The translations under genes were made by a program, and so were the position numbers. A DNA stretch of 64,000 nucleotides from Solobacterium sp. (lineage in GTDB: Bacteria; Bacillota_I; Bacilli_A; Erysipelotrichales; Erysipelotrichaceae), in NCBI GenBank assembly GCA_017510405.1, contig JAFWNG010000040.1:62001-126000 (forward strand), given 5' to 3'. Numbering within the stretch: position 1 is the stretch's first letter; each line of letters opens with the position of its first letter. Under the pieces are notes generated by a model. That model searched no databases. It was given only the letters and a program-made list of their open reading frames with translations, and was not told the origin of the DNA. Below are positions 14,038 through 63,152 of this stretch, piece after piece.

Positions 14038-16506
14038 TCACTCTGCCTTCGTGGATAAGCTGATCAGGTTTTTCAGCCGGGGAGAATCTTCAGAAAAGAT
14101 CTTATATCCGGTGTTCAGTGCGGTTTGTCTGGCTTCTTCTGCCTGTTCTGTAAGACCAAGCCTGGCACAGCAGGATACCTTCAGTACAAGCTGATCAAAA
14201 TAGGAAAGATTGGATTCATTATAGAACTGCAGATAGGCGGAAAGATTGAGGTCGATCTCCGCAAGTGCTTCTCTGTACTTACCCTCGGCATACAGGATCT
14301 TTGCACGGCGTGAGGTGGCACGCAGGATATCCGGATTTCGTTCACCCCATGTTGCTGCGCCGCGCTGAACAAGAAGATCATATGCTTCATCTACCAGTGC
14401 TTTGGCCTTCGCATAGTCCTGCATTGTCATGCAGATGTCTGCGTAACGCAGAAGACTGCCGGCACAGCGGAATCTGGTTTCGGGATCTGTGAAATGTGCG
14501 CGGGCATATTCTACTGCGCTTTCTGCATATTCCTTCGCACGTGCAAAATCTTCCGGATCTGAGGAGGTATCATAGCGCATGGAATAATACTTGGAGATAT
14601 TTTCCTGCAGACCGCCATATGTGACACAGGCATTGTAATCTGACGGATCGATCTTTCTGTAAAGCCGAAGAGCACGCATCAGCCACTCTTCTGCACGGTC
14701 CATGGCGTTTTCCACGGACGGATTGAACAGCAGAGTCCAGCCGATGCCGTAGCAGAGACTTGCTGTATCCAGTGCGTATTCACCAATTGTATCCAGATAA
14801 TACCGGTAGATCTCTTCACTGAGACGGACGGATTTCTCTGCCTGTCCCGCAAAACCGTAAATATTTCTTGCGGAACGGCATAATGCGACCGTATCCTCAC
14901 TGACCGGACCGACGGCAGAAAGAATGCTTTCCAGGATCATGCTGTACTGCTCTTTCTGTGCCTGCGTCAGGAACCAGGAAACTTTCAGATCCTCTGCGGC
15001 GTTGTCAAGAAATGAGCGGATCTCACTGGCATGGACAGGCAGCTGGTACTGGATGACTTTGCGGACGACCGGATGAAGCGTGATACCGCCGGCATTGCGC
15101 ATGATCCAGCCGCGCATTTCCAGGCGATGCAGTATACGCGTGTCTTTCAGGTCTGCCCACTTTTTGAACTTCATTGCCGGAATACCGCATAAGGGGATCA
15201 GAGACAGAAGCTTCAGAACAGCCTGTTCCTCGCTGCTGAGGGAAAAGACTTTGAACATGCGTACGAGGTTTTCATACGCGGTATCCGCAGACGCACCGGA
15301 CACATGTACTGTTTCATTCAGGGAAGTGATTCCTTCTGTCTGCAGTGCATCGATCATTTGCCGGACGTTCTGTCCGCTGTTTTCCATGTGATGTGCCAGT
15401 AATATGACGGTGTAGGTATGACAATTGACCAGACGGATCAGAGCAGGCAGATCCGGATCATCCGGTTCTACGTCAAATCCCTGGTAATTCTGCGTAAAGA
15501 CTGTGATGAGATCGTTCATATCTTCGATCTCTTTTACCGGTATCGCTGTATATTCACGGGAACAGTTGATCCGTGTTGTCGCAAGGATCTGCCATGGTCC
15601 ATCCAGGATACGGGGCAGGTCCGGATCCTGCAGGTTATCCAGATTATCCAGGATAAGAAGTGTCTGCGGTGTTGCGGTACGGCGCAGTTCCTGCAGCTTG
15701 CGTTCAAAGTATGATCCATCTTCTTCCGGTGCCGTATCGATGATCTTTCGAGGAAGCGGCGGACGCAGTTCAAAGGGCTGTTCCGCAATGACAAGATCAC
15801 GAAGGGAATTCTCACATACGGCGTGAATGATCACATCATATTCATTTCTGTGCGCCAGAGCATACTGGAGGGCGATCTCTGTTTTTCCGATACCGCCGAT
15901 ACCGTAGAGGAATACTGCCTTTCTTCCGGCACGGTACTTCTGTTCGATCTCATCCAGAATGTTCTGTCTGCCGCAGAAATAAGGCTTTACCGGCAGATAA
16001 CCGGAAGACAGCAGATGTCTGTTCTGTGTTTGCTGGCTTGCTTCTCTGGCTGCAGAACTGCCGATGCGTTCTATGATCTGCTCGACCAGTTTTGACAAAT
16101 CGGTAATATTGCGTACATCAATGGCCTGACGGTCATTCATATCGACCCACCACAGTACCTTATCCTCCGGTATATCCCGGTTATCGATCTGATCCATCAT
16201 GACGATATAGAGGGGACGGTCATAGTGGCTGGCAGCGATCGTATATTCTTTTTTTACGAAGGAATCTTTCTTTGGAAGAATTCCGCGCGTAAAAAACAGG
16301 ATCACACCCTTTGCACTGCGGATCTTCTCCGCAATAGTCTTCTCCCACAGATCACCGGCTTCGATTCCCCGGTCATACCACAGGTGAAAACCATTGTCAC
16401 GAAGCGCACGTGCGATCGCAGCGACTCTGTCAGTATCTTCTGAGTTGTAACTGATGAAATAATAATCCGCGTCTTCCGTCGGAATAAAACCGAAATCATT
16501 TGCCAT
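14038..16506 (-). CDS. TIR / NB-ARC (STAND) / TPR protein, bacterial NLR-like
   Basis: The 822-residue protein has an N-terminal TIR domain (YYFISYNSEDTDRVAAIARA at 15-34; FVKKEYTIAA with Glu87 in the catalytic position). An NB-ARC type ATPase follows: Walker A YGIGGIGKTE at 201-210, Walker B TLLILDNLDN at about 282-291, sensor ATTR at 309-312, then a winged helix. From about 480 on there are TPR-like helical repeats. This is the layout of prokaryotic NLR-type sensors: the repeats recognise a trigger, the ATPase oligomerises, and TIR cleaves NAD to stop growth. Those roles are family knowledge. All key motifs look intact. A GGGGGA site precedes the ATG. Its trigger is unknown. Confidence 0.9.
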   Translation of the reverse strand: MANDFGFIPTEDADYYFISYNSEDTDRVAAIARALRDNGFHLWYDRGIEAGDLWEKTIAEKIRSAKGVILFFTRGILPKKDSFVKKEYTIAASHYDRPLYIVMMDQIDNRDIPEDKVLWWVDMNDRQAIDVRNITDLSKLVEQIIERIGSSAAREASQQTQNRHLLSSGYLPVKPYFCGRQNILDEIEQKYRAGRKAVFLYGIGGIGKTEIALQYALAHRNEYDVIIHAVCENSLRDLVIAEQPFELRPPLPRKIIDTAPEEDGSYFERKLQELRRTATPQTLLILDNLDNLQDPDLPRILDGPWQILATTRINCSREYTAIPVKEIEDMNDLITVFTQNYQGFDVEPDDPDLPALIRLVNCHTYTVILLAHHMENSGQNVRQMIDALQTEGITSLNETVHVSGASADTAYENLVRMFKVFSLSSEEQAVLKLLSLIPLCGIPAMKFKKWADLKDTRILHRLEMRGWIMRNAGGITLHPVVRKVIQYQLPVHASEIRSFLDNAAEDLKVSWFLTQAQKEQYSMILESILSAVGPVSEDTVALCRSARNIYGFAGQAEKSVRLSEEIYRYYLDTIGEYALDTASLCYGIGWTLLFNPSVENAMDRAEEWLMRALRLYRKIDPSDYNACVTYGGLQENISKYYSMRYDTSSDPEDFARAKEYAESAVEYARAHFTDPETRFRCAGSLLRYADICMTMQDYAKAKALVDEAYDLLVQRGAATWGERNPDILRATSRRAKILYAEGKYREALAEIDLNLSAYLQFYNESNLSYFDQLVLKVSCCARLGLTEQAEEARQTALNTGYKIFSEDSPRLKNLISLSTKAE

Positions 16507-16642
16507 ACTTCCCCCTGTGAATGAATATGTCTGTCATTACAGACATTTTACTGCATACTTGTTTTACAGGAATACAGGAAACATAGACAAACATCCATTT
16601 CTCTAATATGATTCCTAGGTGCGACACAAGGAGAAACAGAAT

Positions 16643-17506
16643 ATGAAAGTAGCAGTTACATATGATAACGGAAATGTATTCCAGCACTTTGGAAGAACAG
16701 AGTCCTTCAAGGTATATGAAGTGGAAAATAAAGAGATCGTATCCTCGAAAGTGGTATCTTCCAACGGACAGGGACACGGCGCTCTGGCAGGAGTACTGGG
16801 CGGATACGATGTGGATGTGCTGATCTGCGGCGGAATCGGCGGCGGTGCAAGAGCTGCGCTGGCTTCCTGCGGCATCGAAGTATGCGCAGGTGCTTCCGGT
16901 GATGCGGACGAAGCAGTAAAGGCATATCTGAACGGCACCCTGGTACCGTCGGATGAGACATGCGATCACCACGATCATCACGAAGACGGCGGATGCTGCG
17001 GACATCATGACCATGAGGAAGATCATGAGTGCTGCGGACACCATGATGACGGGAACTGCTGCTGCGGCAATGAAGCGGCAGGAAAGAATATCGGCAAGAC
17101 TGTTAAAGTACACTACCGCGGTACATTCAATGACGGCACACAGTTTGATTCCTCGTATGACAGAGGCAAAACACTGGACTTCGTATGCGGCGCGCACATG
17201 ATGATCCAGGGATTTGACGCGGCAGTTGCCAATATGGAAGTCGGTGAATCTGTGGATATCCACCTGATGCCGGAAGAAGCTTACGGCATGCCGGATCCGC
17301 GTCTGATCTTCCAGGTACCGTTAGCACAGCTGCCGGGCTCTGAACAGCTGGAGACAGGCATGCGTGTATATCTGGAAAACGAAATGGGCCAGCAGTTCGG
17401 CGTGACCGTCGTCGGAAAAGATGATGCGATGATCACATTCGACGGCAACCACGAGATGGCAGGCAAGGAGCTCAACTTCCACATCGAACTGATCGAAGTG
17501 CTCTGA
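16643..17506 (+). CDS. NifX/NifB-type domain fused through a His/Cys-rich linker to SlyD-like FKBP prolyl isomerase
   Basis: AGGAGA before the ATG at 16643 sets the start (287 residues). Residues 1-100 are a dinitrogenase-cofactor (NifX/NafY) type fold: MKVAVTYDNGNVFQHFGRTE, then ICGGIGGGARAAL. Residues 107-141 hold a metal-binding stretch with about eight Cys and more than ten His (CDHHDHHEDGGCCGHHDHEE...). Residues 150-287 are an FKBP/SlyD isomerase (VKVHYRGTFNDGTQFDSSYD, MIQGFDAAVANMEVGE, PEEAYGMPDPRLI). SlyD helps nickel insertion and normally carries its metal tail at the C-terminus; here the metal stretch is internal. A metallochaperone role is a reasonable inference; the metal is unknown. 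Confidence 0.85.
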   Translation: MKVAVTYDNGNVFQHFGRTESFKVYEVENKEIVSSKVVSSNGQGHGALAGVLGGYDVDVLICGGIGGGARAALASCGIEVCAGASGDADEAVKAYLNGTLVPSDETCDHHDHHEDGGCCGHHDHEEDHECCGHHDDGNCCCGNEAAGKNIGKTVKVHYRGTFNDGTQFDSSYDRGKTLDFVCGAHMMIQGFDAAVANMEVGESVDIHLMPEEAYGMPDPRLIFQVPLAQLPGSEQLETGMRVYLENEMGQQFGVTVVGKDDAMITFDGNHEMAGKELNFHIELIEVL

Positions 17507-17984: not shown

Positions 17985-18782
17985 ATGAATACAATGGAAG
18001 TGATCCGCACAAGAAGAAGTGTGCGTACATTTGACGGCAGAGCACTCACGATGGAAGATCTGGGAAAGCTCGCCGATTATATCGAATCGATCAGTAACCC
18101 GTACCGGATCCCGGTGGAATTTGTATTCCTGGATACCGAGGAATACGGACTGAGTACACCGGTGATCAAAGGGGAGAAAATGTATATTGCCGCGAAGGCG
18201 CCGGCTGTGAAGCATGCGGAAGAAGCGTACGGCTACGCGTTTGAAAAGATGGTGCTGTATGCATGGTCGCTGGGAATCGGAACAACGTGGATCGGCGGCA
18301 CGATGAAGCGGGAACTGTTCGAAAAGGCAGCGTACACGGCAGAAGGCGAACATATGTTCTGCATCAGTCCGCTGGGCTATCCGGCTGCGAAGATGGGACT
18401 GCGGGAAGCCGCCATGCGCAAAGGTGTGCGGGCAGACAAGAGAAAGCCGGCAAAAGACCTGTTCTTTGAGAGTGATTTCAGCACACCGCTGGATGTCGAA
18501 AACTCACCGGTGAAAGACGCACTGGAGGCAGTACGCCTCGCACCGTCTGCCGTCAATAAACAGCCGTGGCGCATTGTCCGCGACGGCCGTAAGTATCATT
18601 TCTATCTGAAACATGACAAAGGATATGCGGACGGCGCATGGGATATCCAGAAAATCGATATGGGCATTGCGCTGTGCCACTTCATGACCATGACAGAAGG
18701 TACGTTCCTGCTGGAAGATCCGTTATATCCGCTGGACAGTGAACTCGAATACATCGCAACTGTAGAAATACCGGAGGAGTAA
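17985..18782 (+). CDS. Nitroreductase family protein (TM1586-like)
   Basis: The 265-residue protein starts with the FMN-binding segment MEVIRTRRSVRTFDGRAL, has ALEAVRLAPSAVNKQPWRIV (about 180-200), and a central AWSLGIGTTWIGGT. The tandem layout with a second half-domain fits the TM1586-type nitroreductases, which use FMN and NAD(P)H to reduce nitro or quinone groups. Its real substrate is unknown. The next gene, a flavodoxin-fold reductase, starts 4 bases after its stop, so they are one operon and may act together in flavin redox chemistry. AGGAGG precedes the ATG. Confidence 0.88.
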   Translation: MNTMEVIRTRRSVRTFDGRALTMEDLGKLADYIESISNPYRIPVEFVFLDTEEYGLSTPVIKGEKMYIAAKAPAVKHAEEAYGYAFEKMVLYAWSLGIGTTWIGGTMKRELFEKAAYTAEGEHMFCISPLGYPAAKMGLREAAMRKGVRADKRKPAKDLFFESDFSTPLDVENSPVKDALEAVRLAPSAVNKQPWRIVRDGRKYHFYLKHDKGYADGAWDIQKIDMGIALCHFMTMTEGTFLLEDPLYPLDSELEYIATVEIPEE

Positions 18783-18786
18783 GCAG

Positions 18787-19425
18787 ATGGCAAAAAAGAT
18801 CGTAGCGGTCAACGCAAGTCCGCGCAAAGGCTGGAATACCGACATTCTGGTAAACGAAGCGGCACGCGGCGCAGCAGAGGCAGGTGCGGAGATCATTCAC
18901 TTTGACCTGTATAAACTGGATAAATACACCGGCTGTATTTCCTGCTTCGGCTGTAAGAAAGAGAAATTCAAGGGACACTGTATCTGCCGGGACGGACTGA
19001 CGCCGGTCCTGGACGCGATCCGGGAATCGGACGGTCTGATCATCGGTTCACCGAATTATCTGGGTGAAATGAGCGCCGGGTTCCGTGCCCTGTATGAACG
19101 TCTGATCTTCCAGAATCTTACGTACAACAAAGAGAATCCCTGCTGCAACGAGCATCCGGTACCGGTACTGTTCATCCATACAAGCAACGCGCCGGATCTC
19201 ATGTACGGCGGACTGGTCAAAGACTATAAGAATACGCTGAGCCGGTTTGTCGGCCCGACGAAGACATTCCGCTGCGGCAATACACTGCAGCTGAAGGACT
19301 ATTCCAAAACAGACTGGGAATGGTCGATGTTTGATCCGGAAGCCAAACAGAAACGCCGGGAAACGGTATTCCCGAAGGAATGCGAAAAAGCGTATCAGCT
19401 TGGCGCAGAACTGGTAAACAAGTAA
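18787..19425 (+). CDS. NADPH-dependent FMN reductase / iron-sulfur flavoprotein-like
   Basis: The 212-residue product has the flavodoxin-fold phosphate loop VAVNASPRKGWNTDILV (about 6-22), a cysteine motif GCISCFGCKKEKFKGHCIC (about 49-67) typical of iron-sulfur flavoproteins, and GSPNYLGEMSAGFRALYER for FMN. Such proteins pass electrons from NAD(P)H. It is coupled to the nitroreductase upstream and ends at a two-way terminator. Confidence 0.88.
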   Translation: MAKKIVAVNASPRKGWNTDILVNEAARGAAEAGAEIIHFDLYKLDKYTGCISCFGCKKEKFKGHCICRDGLTPVLDAIRESDGLIIGSPNYLGEMSAGFRALYERLIFQNLTYNKENPCCNEHPVPVLFIHTSNAPDLMYGGLVKDYKNTLSRFVGPTKTFRCGNTLQLKDYSKTDWEWSMFDPEAKQKRRETVFPKECEKAYQLGAELVNK

Positions 19426-60836: not shown

Positions 60837-63152
60837 ATGCCGCTTGTATTTCATTTGCTGGTTTTCGGCTGGCTGGGCATTCTGGGCACTGGTCTTCTGA
60901 TGCTCTATTTCACGTTCAGAAAGAAAACGGTCTGGAAAAAGAAAGTAATACTGCTTCTGATTCTCTTTTTACTGATCCTCATTTCCCGTGCGGCAGTAAA
61001 CCTGTACGGCGTCAATGAGGCTGCGGCAGACCCGGATCCGCTTGTGCTCCTCAGTCCGCTGGAAAGAATACTGGACAGTGTCGTTCATGCCCTTCAGAGT
61101 TTCAGCATGGATGAAAACTATACGGATTATATCGTGAAGGGAAAACAGCTGTTCTCCGAAGTGTACGGTCCGGTCTGGGGCACTGCCTATGCTGTAATCA
61201 TTTCTCTTTTGAATATACTGGCACCGGTCACCGGAGGTGCTGTGCTGCTGGATATACTGATCGGTATTTTCCCGCAGTTCAGGATTCGGATCAGTCCCTG
61301 GTGCCGTAAGGTCGTGTTTTCCGAACTGAATGAACAGTCTGTCACACTGGCGGAAGACATATTTCAGAATTATCAGAAACTCTTTCCCGAGGAAGAGAAC
61401 GACGACGACCGGAGACCGCTGATCATTTTTACGGACGCATATCTGGATCAGAAATCCGAAGAAAGCACTGAGGTATATGAACGTGCGAGACGGATCAATG
61501 CGGTATGCATCAAAACAGATCTGGAGCAGCTGTCATTAAAACACTCGAAAAGCATTCACTATATCCTCGTCGATAACGACGAACAGAGCAATATCAAAAC
61601 ACTGGTCGGCCTGCTGGATGTCATCCCGGAAGAAAAAGCGGATAAGAAGGAAAAGACAAACTGGTTCCGGAATCTTTTCGGAAAAGAAGAGAACGGGTTC
61701 CGCAGGATCCGGATCTATGTCATTTTCCACAGCGAAGAGGCATGCAAACTGGCAGACAACATCTGCCGGAAAAAGAATACGCAGAACAGGTGCCTGGTCC
61801 GTACGATCAATGACTATGCGCATGCGGCTGCGGCATTAATGGCAGATATGCCTCTTTTCGTACCTCTGCTGGAATCCAAACAGGCTGCCTCTATACCGGA
61901 AGTGACCGGCAAAACGGTATCGTTCGGACAGTTTAGAACACAGTATGATGATGTCGGACGGATCGGCGGAGTCATTCCGGAAAGAGAATTGCGGGTAACG
62001 ATCCTTGGCAGCGGAAATATTGCGGAAGAAGTGTTTAAGACTGTGTTCTGGTGCGGACAGATGAGCGGGATCCAGCTGGTTATGAATATCATTTCGATGG
62101 ATACGACACAGATGATGCGGAGAATGCGTTCCCGCTGTCCGGAAATATTCCGAACATGCGTCCTGCAGAAAAACGGGGCATGCAGTGATGCAAAAAAGAA
62201 ACCGAAAGAATTACTGAAGATCTACCGGAATTCCGAACTGACAAATCCCCCGTATGCCGTGATCAACTGGTGGAATCGTTATAACGCTGAGAACATAAAG
62301 GAATATCCACCCGGCATACTGAAGAATACCCATTACTATGTTGTTGCCCTGGGAGAAGATAAAAAGAACAGTGAAGTTACACTCATGCTGAAAAGAGAAC
62401 TGTCCCGGCTCATGCTGGAACAGGAGCCGGGTTTACGCCCCGTCATAACGACTCCTGTATATGATAACCGTCTGGCAGATTCCCTGCTGTCAGCGGACAT
62501 AACAAAAGTATATGAGCCGTATGTATTTCCGTTCGCAACATTAAAAAAACGGTATTCCTGCAGTAATATATTCTTTTCGGATTTCTACAGGGAGGCGGAA
62601 AAGACGGAAGAATTATACGGTGAAAAACAGCAGGAGGAATATTATAAGGACAGCTATAATTACTGGTCAAATATCGCCAAAGTGATCCACGCGCCTTATA
62701 AAATGTACGGACTCGGCCGTATCACGAAATACACGGAGGGGGGAACTGACAGATATTCCTTTGAATATAAAAAAGGCAGCCTGGACGAACACGAACAAAC
62801 GGTGTTCCGGTGGATGGAAAAAAGAAGATGGAACGCATATATGCGGACGCGCGGATTTATCAGAATGACAGACACACAGCATAAACAGCTGTATGCTTCT
62901 CAGGAACTGCATAAAGACCTGGAAAACAAACTGCACAACTGCCTTGTGGAATGCAGTCTGAAGAAAGTGATGGATCCGCAGACATATCCGCAGGACTTTG
63001 ATATGTTCGATAATCTGGATATGGTTGCTGTACGGGTCTATGAGATGGAAACAGAAAGCAGATGCCGGAGTGGGAAAGGTCTGAAGGAAAAAGACTATAA
63101 GAAATACGACGGCATCGGATATGATCCGGCCGCCGAAAAACTGATATCCTGA
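60837..63152 (+). CDS. Membrane protein with Rossmann (TrkA-N-like) and RyR-type domains
   Basis: The second ATG (60837) is preferred, 7 bases after GGAGG. The 771-residue protein has spans at about 3-27, 35-57 and 115-140; a first nucleotide-fold region follows (LIIFTDAYLDQ... SIHYILVDND); then a Rossmann motif LRVTILGSGNIAEEVFKTVF (about 384-403) as in TrkA-N domains; the last ~120 residues contain MEKRRWNAYMRTRGF and DMFDNLDMVAVRVYE, as in RyR-type domains of prokaryotic conflict proteins. These are thought to sense a nucleotide-like ligand. It has its own promoter right after the cas operon; membrane-effector status is inference. Confidence 0.7.
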   Translation: MPLVFHLLVFGWLGILGTGLLMLYFTFRKKTVWKKKVILLLILFLLILISRAAVNLYGVNEAAADPDPLVLLSPLERILDSVVHALQSFSMDENYTDYIVKGKQLFSEVYGPVWGTAYAVIISLLNILAPVTGGAVLLDILIGIFPQFRIRISPWCRKVVFSELNEQSVTLAEDIFQNYQKLFPEEENDDDRRPLIIFTDAYLDQKSEESTEVYERARRINAVCIKTDLEQLSLKHSKSIHYILVDNDEQSNIKTLVGLLDVIPEEKADKKEKTNWFRNLFGKEENGFRRIRIYVIFHSEEACKLADNICRKKNTQNRCLVRTINDYAHAAAALMADMPLFVPLLESKQAASIPEVTGKTVSFGQFRTQYDDVGRIGGVIPERELRVTILGSGNIAEEVFKTVFWCGQMSGIQLVMNIISMDTTQMMRRMRSRCPEIFRTCVLQKNGACSDAKKKPKELLKIYRNSELTNPPYAVINWWNRYNAENIKEYPPGILKNTHYYVVALGEDKKNSEVTLMLKRELSRLMLEQEPGLRPVITTPVYDNRLADSLLSADITKVYEPYVFPFATLKKRYSCSNIFFSDFYREAEKTEELYGEKQQEEYYKDSYNYWSNIAKVIHAPYKMYGLGRITKYTEGGTDRYSFEYKKGSLDEHEQTVFRWMEKRRWNAYMRTRGFIRMTDTQHKQLYASQELHKDLENKLHNCLVECSLKKVMDPQTYPQDFDMFDNLDMVAVRVYEMETESRCRSGKGLKEKDYKKYDGIGYDPAAEKLIS

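Follow-up and report, generated by a model that had tools for sequence, protein, structure and literature searches.

The stretch of DNA analysed here (the window; 64,000 nt of Solobacterium sp., positions 62,001 to 126,000 of contig JAFWNG010000040.1, GenBank assembly GCA_017510405.1) harbours a gene whose product joins a NifX-type domain to a SlyD-type FKBP through a segment rich in histidine and cysteine. What does such a fusion protein do, and to which of its two halves does the His/Cys-rich segment belong? The open reading frame starts with the ATG at 16643 and stops at 17506 on the + strand; an in-frame GTG at 16619 would extend it by 8 amino acids, and the alignments of homologues begin at the ATG. 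The features of the locus are as follows.

16643..17506, + strand: fusion gene, NifX/orange protein (ORP)-type domain, His/Cys-rich segment and SlyD-type FKBP, 287 aa
16584..16612, + strand: promoter-like site, TAGACA-17-TATGAT; the region has no more sites of this kind than chance would give
16643..16951, + strand: Nitro_FeMo-Co (NifX/orange-protein type) domain, residues 1-103, from Pfam and model matches, with the invariants H15-F16-G17, H45 and C62
16952..17080, + strand: His/Cys-rich segment, residues 104-146, predicted disorder at 107-143; probably what was once the C-terminus of the NifX half; 62/62 fusions keep C107 and H109 unchanged
17081..17503, + strand: SlyD-type FKBP with insert-in-flap domain, residues 147-287, presumed prolyl-isomerase site residues retained

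Pfam analysis placed Nitro_FeMo-Co (PF02579) at residues 9-96 (E 8.8e-21; 74.5 bits against a curated cut-off of 26.3) and FKBP_C at residues 150-224 (E 5.5e-20). No second Nitro_FeMo-Co domain was found in the host genome. An AlphaFold model built from the window protein and 39 homologues had a mean pLDDT of 81, with both domains confident and residues 107-143 below 50; its pTM of 0.44 says nothing firm on the mutual placement of the halves. The NifX half of the model matched PH0822 with a Z-score of 17.3, TM1816 with 16.9 and the D. gigas orange protein ORP (2wfb) with 17.0, the last of which has the same fold but carries no chaperone domain; the structures 2yx6, 2wfb and 1o13 all match with Z of about 17. 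The C-terminal half matched FKBP12-SlyD chimeras and SlyD with Z of about 14-17, which are the best matches by Foldseek as well, and it was superposed over its full length on SlyD and FKBP12-IF(SlyD) with an rmsd of about 2 A over 133-138 residues. In a search of solved structures an FKBP12-SlyD insert chimera ranked top (residues 150-285, E 1.8e-25), with SlyD of E. coli and other species below it. The FKBP domain with an insert-in-flap domain that marks a SlyD is therefore present, and the domains named by an earlier sequence-only reading, a NifX-type domain, a His/Cys-rich segment and an FKBP, are confirmed by Pfam and structure matches.

The fusion scored 18.8 bits with the model of NifX proper (TIGR02663), under the 112-bit equivalog cut-off. 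With the MrpORP model (NF041136) it scored 77.3 bits against a cut-off of 450 that applies to the whole two-domain protein; only the C-terminal domain of the model was matched (residues 1-100 of the fusion, E 1.4e-21), and the Mrp P-loop NTPase is absent.

The 43 residues of the segment (104-146) contain 10 His and 8 Cys, against 7 His and 4 Cys in the other 244 residues, an enrichment with a hypergeometric P of about 5e-10. Two alignments were made, A1 with 62 of 110 fusions and A2 with 40, near-copies being dropped, and the homologue sets exclude L001 and L082, both of which are copies of the gene in the window. The domain arrangement is retained in all of the 62 aligned fusions, so neither the fusion nor the segment is a chance product. 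Among them the segment is 28 to 73 residues long and contains 3-17 His and 4-9 Cys. H15, F16, G17, H45, C62, C107 and H109 are invariant in the 62 fusions, which were chosen from the 110 by identity. The same holds for Y158, F168, D169, F180, M187, I188 and Y214, which by alignment lie at the FKBP12 positions that we take to form the prolyl-isomerase site.

A scan of one genome per species yielded 290 related stretches, the best 80 of which all match the fusion over essentially its whole length, with 61-68% identity in the best segment; these 80 come mostly from Lachnospiraceae (Blautia, Mediterraneibacter, Anaerostipes, Roseburia), with a few from Solobacterium and others. The fusion is present in 39 of 272 genomes of the host family and 35 of 70 of the host genus, one copy ending at a contig edge, and, in the family of Blautia massiliensis, in 43 of the 250 genomes sampled. 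These results indicate a widespread protein. The sequence-only reading had named a widespread fusion with a known role as what would speak against its proposal: the first part of this was observed, whereas for the second a search of open-licence PMC papers for the fusion, for its parts together or for DUF134 listed no paper that describes it. We consider the protein a new variant, that is, two known families in a combination without description in the literature searched.

To which half the segment belongs can be judged from relatives in which the halves are not joined. A His/Cys-rich tail, in most cases with C-x-H at its beginning, closes each of 29 unfused NifX relatives picked from match lists. 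Each of seven unfused relatives of the SlyD half (60-73% identical) is tail-less and has its C-terminus directly behind the FKBP. Since the NifX relatives are tailed and the lone SlyDs tail-less, the internal segment is best read, from sequence comparison, as the original C-terminus of the NifX half, to which a SlyD lacking a tail became joined. The same observations contradict the view that the segment is a SlyD metal tail moved inwards and shared between the two domains. The fusion itself ends in IELIEVL without a C-terminal metal-binding tail. Among the 29 relatives some are stand-alone, many lie behind an N-terminal DUF134 domain (Pfam was run on one of them), and two (L128 and L129) lie behind a long part that is Mrp/ParA-like as judged by length and sequence. 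That the tailed NifX domain occurs with such different partners suggests a self-standing cargo-binding module.

Both halves occur as separate genes in three genomes (G312, G508 and G452), which makes the fusion itself an argument for a shared task. In three of the seven lone-SlyD genomes (G407, G463 and G333), the same search gave no second match, so that one half may occur without the other. The FKBP tree, weakly supported and poorly resolved, places three of the seven lone SlyDs among fused ones; these three may be later splits in which the fusion was undone, and the other four cluster together (SH-aLRT 95). A single origin of the fusion was not rejected (p-AU 0.55, from 100 poorly resolved columns of the NifX half).

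The DUF134 plus Nitro_FeMo-Co proteins of the same bacteria share with the fusion the NifX-type domain and a similar His/Cys tail, but have a DNA-binding-like domain in front where the fusion has SlyD behind. Upstream of 13 of 14 DUF134-NifX genes (L112, L113, L116, L117, L121, L122, L123, L125, L131, L143, L144, L146 and L150) a CATATG-centred palindrome of at least 8 bp was observed within 100 nt, against 0.9% of shuffles and 2 of 109 fusions. In 11 of these genes it lies about 20-28 nt before the start. The palindrome resembles an operator through which a DUF134 repressor would control its own gene, with the tailed NifX domain perhaps acting as the sensor.

Described carriers provide the closest comparison for the NifX half. 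According to the available part of its description (PMC6345978), MrpORP is an Fe-S carrier of anaerobes whose Di-Nase/ORP domain binds a [3Fe-4S] cluster, proposed to be held by the conserved motifs CXHFGHCE and, at the domain end, CDH; transfer of the cluster of this C-terminal domain to apo-aconitase was not efficient. HFG and C-x-H stand at the corresponding places in 62/62 fusions, whereas the two cysteines of CXHFGHCE are replaced by other residues, and because both are missing the cluster site of the fusion cannot equal that of MrpORP. MrpORP and the fusion both join this cargo domain to a delivery partner, which in MrpORP is an Mrp/NBP35 ATPase, a P-loop NTPase, and in the fusion a SlyD; the long His/Cys tail is a further difference. 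In IssA, as given in the accessible part of its report (PMC5524996), an ORP-fold NifX-type domain with a flexible C-terminal tail that helps hold the cargo is loaded with iron-sulfur and able to reconstitute a [4Fe-4S] ferredoxin. This tail of IssA is cationic, Gly/aromatic-rich and has one Cys, unlike the His/Cys-rich tail of the fusion, and IssA has no chaperone domain. SlyD likewise combines on one chain an FKBP with an insert-in-flap domain and a flexible segment rich in His, Cys and acidic residues. However, the metal tail that some members possess follows the FKBP, whereas the segment of the fusion precedes it and comes from another protein, and SlyD has no NifX-type domain ahead of it.

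Our preferred reading of the fusion, with a probability of about 0.45, is a folding helper to which a carrier of an Fe-S cluster or of metal-sulfur cargo is tethered; a one-chain metallochaperone is our best guess. The NifX/orange-protein-type domain and its His/Cys tail would bind an Fe-S cluster or, loosely, a metal, the SlyD-type half, being an insert-in-flap chaperone and prolyl isomerase, would hold unfolded apo-protein clients, and the flexible tail between them would let the cargo reach the client during folding. What we observed in support of this reading is the combination of domains, the flexible linker, halves that occur unfused, a tail that originates on the NifX side, and the conservation of the isomerase site, H15-F16-G17 and C107-x-H109. 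Fe-S or metal binding by the fusion, the kind of metal and the passing of cargo to SlyD-held clients are what we infer. Candidate clients are FeFe-hydrogenases and other Fe-S enzymes. FeFe-hydrogenase-type domains were found in 70/70 genomes of the genus, and their presence is thus uninformative.

A nickel role was also considered. The fusion could be a nickel store and delivery chaperone like SlyD of E. coli, with the segment buffering nickel for HypA/HypB and a nickel enzyme. The His/Cys tails of SlyD bind nickel, as stated in the part of a review at hand (PMC7055735), the host carries two HypA genes and, adjacent, two HypB genes, and HypA scored over its cut-off in 35 of 39 fusion genomes of the family against 78 of 233 others (in the genus, 32/35 with the fusion against 18/35 without). 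However, fusion genomes are larger (about 3.1 vs 2.3 Mb, corrected for completeness), and when the model also includes genome size and completeness, the link between the fusion and HypA has a p of only 0.14. Of 16 fusion-bearing isolates, chosen from the best 80 of the 290 loci, only 4 have HypA over the cut-off. The large subunit of [NiFe]-hydrogenase was found in 0/70 genomes of the genus by PF00374 and 0/70 by PF00346, and LarC occurs in 32/35 genomes with the fusion and 28/35 without (p 0.31). The search for hydrogenase or other nickel enzymes that the sequence-only reading proposed therefore gave a nickel link no support beyond the uncorrected HypA counts. As the tail is derived from NifX and the lone SlyD relatives have none, we regard a nickel role as improbable. 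The HypA genes of the host lie outside the window (L132:5300-9774 and L133:9089-12176), where they adjoin genes for GltD-like Fe-S flavoenzymes of about 920 aa; the two HypB genes are beside HypA at L132:5300-9774.

The name NifX suggests yet another role, that of a cofactor carrier for nitrogenase-like enzymes. The host genome does contain, outside the window (L151:5172-9554), a nitrogenase-like set of co-oriented genes, which encode Fer4_NifH, two PF00148 proteins and a periplasmic binding protein. But PF00148 is over its cut-off in 11/35 genomes with the fusion and 10/35 without, and PF06463, for molybdenum-cofactor synthesis, is absent from the host and present in 7/70 genomes of the genus; neither link shows association with the fusion, and such a role appears very improbable.

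The surroundings of the gene were compared among the fusion loci. No shared operon was found, the commonest neighbour cluster besides the fusion itself being present in 16 of 110 loci. The picking of ORFs was crude (the longest frame wins, some are antisense, and no more than 89 loci had the fusion itself in a cluster), so that weak sharing of neighbours may have escaped it. No Rfam element was found in the window or in 11 fusion loci, and 107 upstream stretches gave no shared motif or operator beyond A-rich and promoter-like words. With neither conserved neighbours nor an RNA element or operator, no pathway is pointed to.

In the window, the gene divergent from the fusion (14038-16506, - strand) encodes a defence-like protein in which a TIR domain is followed by an AAA ATPase match below threshold and a long C-terminal region. 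Between the two genes lies a perfect inverted repeat at 16527-16546, ATGTCTGT-CATT-ACAGACAT, which did not appear among the repeats listed for 10 other fusions. Downstream (17985-19425, + strand) are a putative TM nitroreductase (PF14512) gene and an FMN-reductase-like gene, a pair that did not emerge as frequent neighbours in the comparison of fusion loci.

The lack of an operon or regulatory RNA would suit a housekeeping or metal-switched foldase, in which the SlyD half folds proteins while the NifX half and tail only buffer zinc, copper or iron or switch the isomerase off with metal. In 16 isolates the other FKBP-domain genes are mostly of trigger-factor size or larger, which, as judged by size, makes the fusion the main SlyD-like protein. 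Nickel is also stated to inhibit the isomerase of E. coli SlyD in the available part of the review (PMC7055735). A foldase alone leaves unexplained why a full NifX/ORP domain with invariant H15, H45 and C62 is kept in 62/62 fusions, and we hold it to be unlikely, though plausible.

The tethered carrier that we prefer may be taken one step further. We know of no described carrier that couples chaperone holding with cluster loading. The fusion might be a co-folding cofactor inserter, in which unfolded apo-enzymes are held by the SlyD arm and receive an Fe-S or mixed metal-sulfur cluster from the NifX/ORP arm tethered to it, in use among common Lachnospiraceae of the gut and their neighbours; so specific a version is rather unlikely. 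If true, the delivery of Fe-S or metal would be coupled to protein folding directly and physically in common gut anaerobes, and a single chain that is easy to clone would offer a test case. Should the function prove duller, His/Cys segments of this kind should still be annotated as the tail of NifX and not as that of SlyD.
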